From positions 186,001 to 250,000 of the forward strand of contig NZ_JAIUZY010000003.1 of assembly GCF_020171625.1 (NCBI RefSeq): a stretch of 64,000 nt of DNA, given 5' to 3'. Positions 1,318 to 54,279 of this stretch are shown here, in pieces. A program made the position numbers and the translations under genes. Positions within the stretch are counted from its first letter, which is position 1. Each line of letters starts with the position of its first letter. The notes under the pieces are model-generated. The model saw nothing but the letters and a program-made list of their open reading frames with translations, had not been told where the DNA came from and did not search any database. This DNA is from Salipiger bermudensis (GTDB taxonomy: Bacteria > Pseudomonadota > Alphaproteobacteria > Rhodobacterales > Rhodobacteraceae).

Positions 1318-1393
1318 GGGGGCGCTGCCCCCGTCCCGGACCTGCGTCCGGGCCTCCCCCAAGGTATTTTGAACCAGAGAAGGACAAGGGGCG
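1318..1393. repeat. Dispersed palindromic repeat, unit D (single unit)
   Basis: A single unit of the window's intergenic repeat family, between phoH and ybeY. It has three parts. Hairpin I is GGGGGCGCTGCCCCC (1318-1332). Hairpin II pairs CCCGGAC (1335-1341) with GTCCGGG (1346-1352). The core at 1361-1393 contains GGTATTTTGAACCAGAGAAG and ends AAGGGGCG. Unit E at 54209-54279 has the same hairpin I and core but an unrelated hairpin II that is still self-complementary. Confidence 0.7.
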
Positions 1394-3741: not shown

Positions 3742-5049
3742 TCAGACGAGCACGCCTTTCAGGGAGTTGGGCCCGCTCTCGACGATCCTGACAGGGCGAA
3801 GATCGCCGGGCTGGAGCCCCTCCGCCGCCACGTGCACCGCGTGCAGGTAGTCCGACTTGCCGACCATCTGGCCCGGCAGGCGGCCGGTCTTCTCGAACAG
3901 CACGCCGACCTCGCGCCCGACCATGGCATCCTGCAGTGCGCGCTGCTGGCGCGTGAGCAGCGCCTGAAGCCGCTGCAGGCGGTCGTCCTTCTCGGCCTCC
4001 GGGACCTGCGGCCGCTCGGCGGCCGGGGTGCCGGGACGCTCGGAGTACTTGAATGAGAAGGCAGAGCCGTACTCCACCGCCTCGATCAGCGCCATGGTGT
4101 CGCGGAAATCGGCCTCGGTCTCCTCCGGGAAGCCGACGATGAAATCGCCCGACAGATGCAGGTCGGGGCGCGCGGCGCGCAGGCGCTCGATGAGCCGCAG
4201 ATACTGCTCGGCGGTGTGCTGGCGGTTCATCCGCTTGAGGATCTTGTCCGAGCCCGCCTGCACCGGCAGGTGCAGGTAGGGCATCAGCTTGTCGCAATCG
4301 CCATGCGCAGCGATCAGGTCGTCATCCATGTCGTTGGGATGCGAGGTGGTGAAGCGGATGCGCGCGAGCCCGTCGATCTTGGCAAGCTCGCGGATCAGAC
4401 CGGCGAGGCCGCGCTCGTGGCCGTGATAGGCGTTGACGTTCTGGCCCAGCAGGGTGAGCTCGCGCACGCCGCGCTCGACGAGGTCGCGGGCCTCGCTCAG
4501 CACCCGATCGGCCGGGCGCGAGACCTCGGCGCCGCGGGTATAGGGCACCACGCAGAAGGCGCAGAACTTGTCGCAGCCCTCCTGCACGGTGAGAAAGGCG
4601 GTGGGGCCGCGCTTGGCCTTGGGGCGCGATTTCAGCCGCTCGAACTTGTCCTCTTCGGGGAAATCGGTGTCGAGCGCCTTCTCGCCGCCGCGCGCCTTGG
4701 CCTCGAGCTCGGGGAGGCGGTGATAGCTCTGCGGGCCCACCACCAGATCGACCATCGGCTGGCGCCGCATGATCTCGGCGCCCTCGGCCTGTGCCACGCA
4801 GCCGGCCACGCCGATCCTGAGGTCCGGGCGTTCGGCCTTGAGCCCCTTGTAGCGACCGAGCTCGGAATAGATCTTCTCAGCCGCCTTCTCGCGGATGTGG
4901 CAGGTGTTGAGCAGGATCATGTCGGCGTCGTCGGGGCTGTCGGTCTGGACATAGCCCTGCCCGCCCATGGCCTCGGCCATGCGCTCGCTGTCATAGACGT
5001 TCATCTGGCAGCCATAGGTCTTGATGAAGAGCTTCTTGGGCTGGGTCAT
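3742..5049 (-). CDS. miaB: tRNA-2-methylthio-N6-isopentenyladenosine synthase MiaB
   Basis: A 435-residue radical-SAM methylthiotransferase that adds a methylthio group to isopentenyl-adenosine 37 of tRNAs. The N-terminal MTTase domain has its three cluster cysteines (Cys14, Cys50, Cys84). The radical-SAM motif CDKFCAFC supplies Cys159, Cys163 and Cys166. The C-terminal about 65 residues form the TRAM domain. The length is normal for MiaB, and YGCQMN and LNTCHIR fit MiaB better than the RimO or MtaB paralogues. The start [10 protein letters not shown] lies at 5047-5049. Confidence 0.96.
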
Positions 5050-5183: not shown

Positions 5184-5237
5184 GGCCTGCCTCCGGCGGG
5201 GATATTTTTGGCCAGAAGAAGACAGGGGCGCGGCGCT
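5184..5237. repeat. Dispersed palindromic repeat, unit C (single unit)
   Basis: A single repeat unit in the 327-base gap 5050-5376 between divergent miaB and the gene at 5377. It runs from CCTGCCTCCGGCGGGGATAT through TTTTGGCCAGAAGAAGACAG to GGGGCGCGGCGC. The CCTCCGGCGGG end matches the left ends of the paired copies A and B. The rest of the gap is GC-rich and I see no gene in it. Confidence 0.65.
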
Positions 5238-12176: not shown

Positions 12177-12302
12177 ACGCCTCCGGCGGGAGTATTTTTG
12201 ACGAAGAGAAGCCAGGGGCGCGGCGCTCATGTCTTCTTTGGTTCAAAAATACCTCGGGGGTGAATTGGCGCAAAGCGCCAAGAGGGGGCAGAGCCCCCTC
12301 CC
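12177..12302. repeat. Dispersed palindromic repeat, paired copy A
   Basis: A head-to-head pair of repeat units in the hisH-DUF2147 gap. The left unit starts CCTCCGGCGGG. Its arm 12191-12211 (AGTATTTTTGACGAAGAGAA...) pairs imperfectly with the right arm 12233-12254 (CTTCTTTGGTTCAAAAATAC...). The right unit ends with two hairpins: TTGGCGC/GCGCCAA (12265-12281) and GGGGGC/GCCCCC (12284-12298). The final hairpin is followed by TCCCTTGTTT and might also terminate hisH. Confidence 0.75.
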
Positions 12303-12369
12303 TTGTTTCCAAAAGCGCACTTCCGATCGGACCGGACAGGGCGCCCCCTGCCCTTGTGACGCCGTGGCG

Positions 12370-44910: not shown

Positions 44911-45015
44911 CTGCCTCCGGCGGGAGTATTTTCGACGAAGAGAAGCCAGGGGCGCGGCGCTCATGGCTTCTTTGGTTCGAAAATACCTCGGGGGTGAATT
45001 GGCGCGCAGCGCGAA
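44911..45015. repeat. Dispersed palindromic repeat, paired copy B
   Basis: A head-to-head pair like copy A. The left unit starts CTGCCTCCGGCGGG; its arm (44925-44945, AGTATTTTCGACGAAGAGAA...) pairs with the right arm (about 44967-44988, CTTCTTTGGTTCGAAAATAC...). Where copy A has TTTTTG facing CAAAAA, copy B has TTTTCG facing CGAAAA, so both arms changed together. A TTGGCGCG/CGCGAA hairpin follows, and a last GC hairpin is listed as a terminator. Confidence 0.75.
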
Positions 45016-45044
45016 GAGGGGGCAGCGCCCCCTCCTTTTTTTTC
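45016..45044 (+). terminator. Terminator at the end of repeat copy B, downstream of ubiH
   Basis: AGGGGGC (45017-45023) pairs with GCCCCCT (45027-45033) around AGC and is followed by CCTTTTTTTTTC. It shows that the repeat's terminal hairpin can act as an intrinsic terminator in this copy. Confidence 0.85.
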
Positions 45045-45108
45045 ATAGAGGCGCACCTTCAATCCGACAGGCGACAGGCGACAGCCCCCCGTCCTGCGGA
45101 AGTGCCAG

Positions 45109-54208: not shown

Positions 54209-54279
54209 GGGGGCGCTGCCCCCATCGCAGCGGGGCTGCGATTCCCCCGAGGTATTTTCGAACCAGAGAAGACAGGGGG
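54209..54279. repeat. Dispersed palindromic repeat, unit E (single unit)
   Basis: A single unit in the DUF6446-DUF1206 gap. Hairpin I is GGGGGCGCTGCCCCC (54209-54223), identical to unit D. Hairpin II pairs ATCGCAGC with GCTGCGAT (54224-54242), unrelated in sequence to D's. The core runs CCCCCGAGGTATTTTCGAAC then CAGAGAAGACAGGGGG (54244-54279). Confidence 0.7.

Follow-up and report, generated by a model that had tools for sequence, protein, structure and literature searches.

Introduction

The closest described counterparts of the repeat reported here are REP elements, REPINs and the DUS of Neisseriaceae. In the available part of Di Nocera 2013 (PMC3733652), REP families carry GTAG or CGTC tags, GTAG REPs have RAYTs, CGTC REPs are without a dedicated transposase, and REPs lie mostly between convergent and codirectional genes. 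REPINs, as presented in the accessible part of PMC3116915, are inverted doublets tied to RAYTs. The accessible part of PMC3630211 describes DUS that differ in dialect between species, form inverted pairs associated with terminators, and are common within genes.

Here we analyze a repeat from a 64,000-nucleotide stretch of the Salipiger bermudensis genome (the window), in which a preliminary description had singled out two intergenic copies, A and B, recalling REP/BIME elements. The repeat proves to be spread across the Rhodobacterales, a much studied order of marine and photosynthetic bacteria. No description of the family was found in the open-access literature, with an earlier account elsewhere being possible, and Rhodobacterales names are absent from the available parts of PMC3733652, PMC12306157 and PMC1852404. 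An Rfam scan of the whole window placed a tRNA alone above its gathering score, and the best match around copy A was weak (15.6 bits against a gathering score of 50).

Results

Anatomy of the copies in the window

Copies A and B are both real, being 94% identical across 123 nt, and each contains two units placed head to head, as had been proposed: a left unit and an inverted right unit (Table 1). The units form the 30-nt arms of a long imperfect hairpin, H1, with complementarity of 77% in A and 80% in B, and the sequences quoted in the preliminary description, TTTTTG facing CAAAAA in A and TTTTCG facing CGAAAA in B, match those present. In the general plan of a copy, H1 is followed by two further hairpins, H2 and H3, to which the copies of the same genome (own copies) usually add a T-run. 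Copy B indeed ends in a clear terminator-like site, with H3 (GAGGGGGC-AGC-GCCCCCTC) followed by C and T8; the corresponding end of copy A is weaker in a pattern scan. Relative to dinucleotide shuffles, the predicted folds have z scores of -3.16 for A (0 of 200 shuffles as good) and -3.57 for B (1 of 200).

Both copies occupy convergent gaps. Copy A begins 43 nt past a glutamine-amidotransferase gene and has a DUF2147 gene opposite, and copy B lies past a FAD-binding-domain gene, with a class-V aminotransferase gene opposite. Together with three partial copies (Table 1) they would make up the five copies counted earlier in the window. Separately, a second repeat module, about AGGCGCACCTCCGGTGCGACAGGGGGCAGCGCCCCCTCTTTCTTT, is present 3´ of H3 in many own copies, in some of them (for example locus L012) as head-to-tail repeats.

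Table 1. Features of the repeat in the window
Feature	Position (nt)	Strand	Sequence or context
Copy A, whole	12177-12302		
Copy A, left unit = left arm of H1	12179-12211	+	GCCTCCGGCGGG-AG-TATTT-spacer-dialect-GAAG
Copy A, right unit, inverted = right arm of H1	12233-12260	-	CTTCTTTGG-TTC-AAAAATA-CCTCGGGGG
Copy A, H2	12265-12281	+	TTGGCGC-AAA-GCGCCAA; H2 covariation in relatives
Copy A, H3 and tail, terminator-like	12282-12309	+	GAGGGGGC-AGA-GCCCCCTC, then pyrimidine/T-rich tail
Copy A, degenerate downstream tail module	12311-12360 (approximate)	+	GCGCAC...GACAGGG...; 40-copy alignment, by eye
Copy B, whole	44911-45035		
Copy B, left unit	44913-44945	+	TATTTTCGACGAAGAGAAG
Copy B, right unit, inverted	44967-44994	-	
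Copy B, H2, imperfect	44999-45015	+	TTGGCGC-GCA-GCGCGAA
Copy B, H3 and T8, strong terminator-like site	45016-45043	+	
Copy B, downstream tail module	45046-45090 (approximate)	+	AGGCGCACCTTCAATCCGACAGG...; 40-copy alignment, by eye
Single left unit	5189-5221	+	Dialect GGCCAGAAGAAG; gap between gene starting at 5049 (-) and + gene
Single right unit with H2 and H3	54209-54271	-	Between DUF6446 and DUF1206 genes
Single right unit with H2 and H3	1318-1382	-	Behind phoH-like gene (1442-2422, -)

A dispersed family spanning the Rhodobacterales

A and B belong to a dispersed repeat family that spans the Rhodobacterales. BLAST of the own genome gave 43 matches; 40 are full length, with identities of 86-100%, and represent a minimum given that 40 of 161 candidates were scored. 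Such numbers set the repeat well beyond chance. Twenty-nine copies, of which 22 are own and 7 from the genus, were used to build a covariance model (R1), which gave 74 matches in the own genome. R1 matched in all 20 genus genomes searched, the own genome and others that had supplied copies to the model among them, with 2-74 matches each and up to 150 candidates scored; in some cases two of these matches may be readings of a single place on opposite strands. At E<=1e-4, a match was present in 80 of 198 sampled genomes of the family Rhodobacteraceae, for each of which no more than 18 candidates were scored.

A scan of named genomes for the left unit yielded at least 118 stretches. Among the matches listed, 76 of 80 stretches carry Rhodobacterales names, and the remaining four come from metagenome assemblies labeled Alphaproteobacteria (two), Hyphomicrobiales and Sphingomonadales. 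Plasmid matches include two, from Salipiger sp. CCB-MM3 and S. profundus, at the coordinates of matches in G014 and G017. In 57 of 198 genomes from the family, the bare pattern GGGNNTATTTN{7,12}GAAG turned up 10 times or more, against a maximum of 6 for its reversed control in any of them; some of these counts are raised by overlapping GAAG ends, and 19 family genomes have zero. Outside the family, 2 of 187 genomes reached 10, and both were set aside as carriers: in G303 the reversed control itself gave 12, and in G356 49 of 51 matches are one identical unrelated stretch. The latter, GGGAATATTTATTAAATGAGAAG, is a different repeat, with 49 copies on contig C1 and others of a genome from another alphaproteobacterial family.

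In assembly G000, four contigs (C7, C13 and C15, in the first 245 nt, and C1, at its end) terminate about 120 nt away from a copy, which suggests that the repeat may break short-read assembly.

A bipartite unit with species-specific dialects

The basic unit reads GGGNNTATTT-N2-4-dialect-GAAG, where the dialect is a block of 7-8 nt characteristic of the species and a GC-rich flank lies on the TATTT side. Units are solitary or form an inverted left/right pair, in which H2 and H3 are attached to the right unit. Within the own genome, GACGAAGAGAAG of the left unit is found in 39 of 40 copies. Sequence logos from three genomes (41, 22 and 19 pattern matches of 24 nt, other lengths excluded, with GGG, TATTT and GAAG imposed by the pattern) show two or three nearly free spacer positions after TATTT (0.17-0.73 bits), an intermediate edge position (0.85-1.1 bits) and a dialect block at 1.56-2.0 bits, apart from one position at 0.83. 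The block is thus nearly fixed inside a genome and differs among genomes, reading CCCAAAGAAG in G157, AACAGAAGAAG in G171 and CGACA(A/C)TGAAG in G206. Identity of the middle of the H1 stem is 0.78 within 20 genomes and 0.57 over 210 genome pairs (80 rows). Some genomes (G121, G161, G182 and G221) have two or three dialects side by side, in matched pairs and some mixed ones.

The arms of H1 behave as independent copies of one motif

The preliminary description had read the double change between A and B as compensatory, and so as a sign of maintained pairing. Among the 40 own copies, the left and right letters at this position are TT/AA in 25, TT/GA in 5, TC/AA, a mismatch, in 2, TC/GA in 1 (copy B) and TA/GA in 1, with other letters in 4 and 2 unscored; the double change is therefore found in one of the 40. 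In alignment A1, composed mostly of own copies, double changes occur at 13 of 50 pairs and 87.4% of cells pair as against 85.8% after shuffling, and three adjoining H1 positions, columns 26, 27 and 28, lack a pair in 22, 27 and 20 of the 29 copies.

Covariation in relatives, which had been suggested as a check, at first sight looks overwhelming. An alignment from other genera (81 rows from 68 loci, 13 rows being opposite-strand readings) has double changes at 41 of 49 pairs and a covariation score of 0.408, compared with 0.157 when shuffled and at most 0.096 when slid. This signal is misleading, because the model that retrieved the loci gives credit for pairing, and the arms turn out to behave as independent copies. 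Where the spacer falls inside the helix, pairing is far below that of the dialect block. The 150 distinct places yielded 116 in-register doublets. The first, second and third positions past TATTT are paired in 54, 57 and 82 of these, and positions 4-13 in 101-115, the latter values being raised by a filter that asks for pairing of the block. The spacer positions are Watson-Crick pairs in 45, 42 and 62 doublets (shuffled, 36.0, 29.6 and 52.5), values reached by 30, 6 and 31 of 1000 shuffles. In the alignment, the three spacer pairs are formed in 58.9% of cells, compared with 48.2% in shuffles, none of 500 of which was as high, and the dialect block pairs in 96.1% as against 65.6%. A spacer somewhat above chance is what would be expected from inverted copying of doublets, or from a small role of pairing.

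Units also do without a partner, or take one of another dialect. In G171, 20 of 21 units (from 20 stretches picked from the pattern listing, a partner being defined by at least 18 of 24 pairs) have no inverted partner and all 21 share AACAGAAGAAG; R1 finds six doublets in the same genome, so single and paired forms coexist. In the named loci, a pairing partner is present for 11 of 83 left units. In G157, the right unit is missing from 2 of 20 units absent from the listed model matches, 6 more are doublets with a single dialect and 12 are doublets joining different dialects, and the ten doublets among the model matches are each of one dialect; pooled, 16 of 28 doublets have matching dialects and 12 differ, from samples biased in opposite directions, the non-model units against pairing and the model matches towards it. 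In the own genome, 4 of 40 copies have another dialect in the right arm with the left arm unchanged. From the spacer, the one-arm units, the mixed-dialect doublets and the lone right-arm changes, H1 is better read as two inverted motif copies, and in the genomes examined its arms are independent copies of one bipartite motif. On the same four observations we reject maintenance of the H1 helix. More generally, covariation among matches to a structure model can mimic selection for pairing when both arms copy one motif.

Copies lie at gene ends

With our own gene caller, no called gene contained any of the 135 copies considered, which comprise 28 from the genus, 68 from the family and 39 of the 40 own; one own place was dropped since no fetched stretch contained all of it. 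Among the 122 copies with both neighbors called, 66 are in convergent, 51 in tandem and 5 in divergent gaps. The window as a whole has 62 gaps, and 11, 39 and 12 of them are of these three kinds; the convergent excess has p 2e-6, against a control that is rough in taking gaps of any length. A preceding gene of the same sense ends at a median distance of 51 nt upstream in own copies (29), 40 nt in the genus (25) and 38.5 nt in the family (48). Of twelve plasmid records with a match, for which the gene table is incomplete, ten have no feature beneath the match, one is unannotated and one (H4) has the gene kfoC. Of seven records inspected further, six have listed genes on both sides of the match, and in one the sole listed gene is beside it.

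Of the 85 left units in 80 named loci, 83 fall outside called genes, and of the 75 with both neighbors called, 3 are in divergent gaps. Within tandem gaps both orientations are about equally frequent (23 and 20), which counts against a pure RNA terminator motif. A hairpin of at least 7 bp stands on the GC side of only 19 of 84 left units of named genomes (shuffles, 4.6%), and on the other side of 7 of 84. The notion that this mini-hairpin and TATTT form a second terminator was dropped, as it is flagged in copy B and absent in copy A.

H2 and H3 have terminator-like features

H2 covaries: its positions pair in 96.7% of cells, compared with 56.0% in shuffles and at most 44.7% when slid, while its sequence varies freely, a result that carries the same structure-model bias as that for H1. 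The core of H3 is nearly invariant. At least five T within 12 nt past H3 are found in 36 of 39 own copies. The count drops to 6 of 28 in the genus and to 11 of 66 in the family, where two copies were excluded for lack of a recognizable H3. A GC-rich hairpin with a T-run at gene ends is therefore a property of the own species and not of most of the wider family.

Variation at orthologous sites and the search for a RAYT

At site B, the element is present in G018 and G227, G016 has an element with other arms, and G001 has an extra gene and a right half. The module is missing in G007 (56 nt), in G004 and G012, which have GTAGGGTGGGC-type hairpins, and in G006 and G017, which have other hairpins. 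The hairpins of G004 and G012, which are other species of the genus (GTAGGGTGGGC...GCCCACC, loci L177 and L176), look like classical GTAG REPs. At site A, an extra gene accompanies the element in G018 and a short plain hairpin takes the place of the element in G017, and in G227 the two sides are far apart, with the left side running into an N run, which points to a break in synteny at or near the element. The extra open frame of G018 (L182), about 1.2 kb, directly adjoins the element and is perhaps a transporter, a guess made by eye. Presence and absence at orthologous gaps indicate that copies have been gained, lost or replaced; by eye, neither a clean empty site nor a target duplication was seen at sites A and B in the relatives.

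The preliminary description had suggested a search for a REP-associated transposase gene. RAYT (Y1_Tnp, PF01797) gave 0 hits in the own genome, with the control positive in 8 of 14. Within the family no association was seen, either by model (4 of 80 carriers, 14 of 118 others) or by unit pattern (5 of the 57 genomes that reach 10 matches, 13 of 141 others). We thus reject RAYT as the mobilizer, and a REP-like repeat with no apparent RAYT needs another copying mechanism.

Discussion

Our data describe a repeat family of the Rhodobacterales whose members sit at gene ends, and we consider it on balance probable, by a narrow measure, that they act as gene-end (termination) modules that also hold a site for a putative co-evolving factor. 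Such a module would mark and enforce the 3´ boundary of transcription units, with H2, H3 and the T-run presumably terminating transcription in vivo, and the inverted pair would supply a boundary to both genes of a convergent pair. The differences in dialect between species suggest a putative partner that reads the repeat; this trans-acting factor would read the dialect block and change along with it, and we infer that copies spread, by whatever mode, and homogenize within a genome. A bolder version, which we put forward tentatively and think rather unlikely as it stands, is an order-wide and quickly re-spelled gene-end code, in which a putative factor binds TATTT-N2-4-dialect units beside terminators and co-evolves with them, such that each species, sometimes with two or three dialects per genome, would have its own code for the boundaries of transcription units. 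The bipartite dialect motif offers a way to look for a reading factor, through a comparison of dialects with proteins over many genomes.

Weighing against a boundary role are the weak T-run outside the own species, the small share of left units with a GC-side hairpin, their two orientations in tandem gaps and the plasmid match beneath an annotated gene. The presence and absence of the module at orthologous gaps means that gene ends can do without it, which also argues against a boundary role and fits a selfish repeat of the REPIN kind. On that view the doublet would be a non-autonomous, miniature mobile element that some enzyme copies, gene ends would simply be where insertion is tolerated, and the terminator would be incidental. 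The many near-identical copies per genome (40 full-length own copies), the greater similarity of dialects within than between genomes and the synteny break in G227 are what such an element might leave behind. However, Y1_Tnp was not found in the own genome and is unassociated in the family, doublets are not everywhere the dominant form (20 of 21 units in G171 and 72 of 83 named left units have no partner), and, by eye, sites A and B show no clean empty site or target duplication. We regard a selfish origin as possible, but would sooner bet against it.

Two further readings seem to us much less probable. Selection on the pairing of H1 itself, as an RNA stem or a DNA cruciform with compensatory changes, could account for the highly paired dialect block and for a spacer in which positions 1-3 beat most of 1000 shuffles, and yet the search that produced these copies scored structure, the first two spacer positions, although within the helix, are paired in no more than about half of the doublets, three neighboring H1 columns of A1 are mostly unpaired, 12 of 28 G157 doublets join different dialects, none of the four own copies with another right-arm dialect has a matching left arm, and one-arm units retain the same sequence. 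Pairing as a selected feature of H1 is thereby largely refuted, and we hold it to be quite improbable. By analogy with DUS, the dialect motif might instead serve as a signal for DNA uptake or recombination, its copies enriched because cells preferentially take up their own DNA, often as inverted pairs at terminators, and the dialects and the inverted pairs at gene ends do resemble what the accessible part of PMC3630211 describes. Against this stand the low numbers, at most 101 pattern matches per family genome with a pattern that catches part of the units, and the intergenic position of 83 of 85 left units, whereas the same part of that source has intragenic DUS as common; we think this reading very improbable. 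The gene-end module with a putative co-evolving reader remains the one that we prefer.

Compared with known systems, the family has a REP-like layout and DUS-like dialects, yet fails the tests of tag and RAYT. The likeness to REP/BIME elements drawn in the preliminary description is borne out by the single and head-to-head units, the high copy number, the extragenic position at gene ends and the terminator-like end, and does not extend to the tags or the RAYT: reading through the 40-copy consensus of the own genome and the logos of the three genomes shows neither GTAG nor CGTC. Like REPs, BIMEs and REPINs, the repeat is extragenic and present in many copies, occurs as single and inverted-pair units in convergent and codirectional gaps, and has species-specific variants; it differs in being bipartite with a free spacer, and not one palindrome, in joining arms of mixed dialect, and in its attached, covarying hairpins. 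The balance of forms varies, with 40 full-length doublets in the own genome, and singles prevailing in the G171 sample and the named loci. CGTC REPs are likewise without a dedicated transposase, but our repeat shows no CGTC tag, has another sequence and layout, and represents a REP-like system apparently without a RAYT. With DUS, as far as the available part of their description goes, it shares species dialects and inverted pairs at terminators or gene ends, and differs in its longer motif and nearly always intergenic position. DUS copies are also more numerous. Intrinsic (Rho-independent) terminators are matched by H3 and the T-run behind stop codons in the own species, and by an H2 that covaries; to our knowledge, such terminators need no conserved bipartite motif with a species-specific block, and it is this block, nearly fixed within a genome and rewritten between genomes, that sets the family apart from them.
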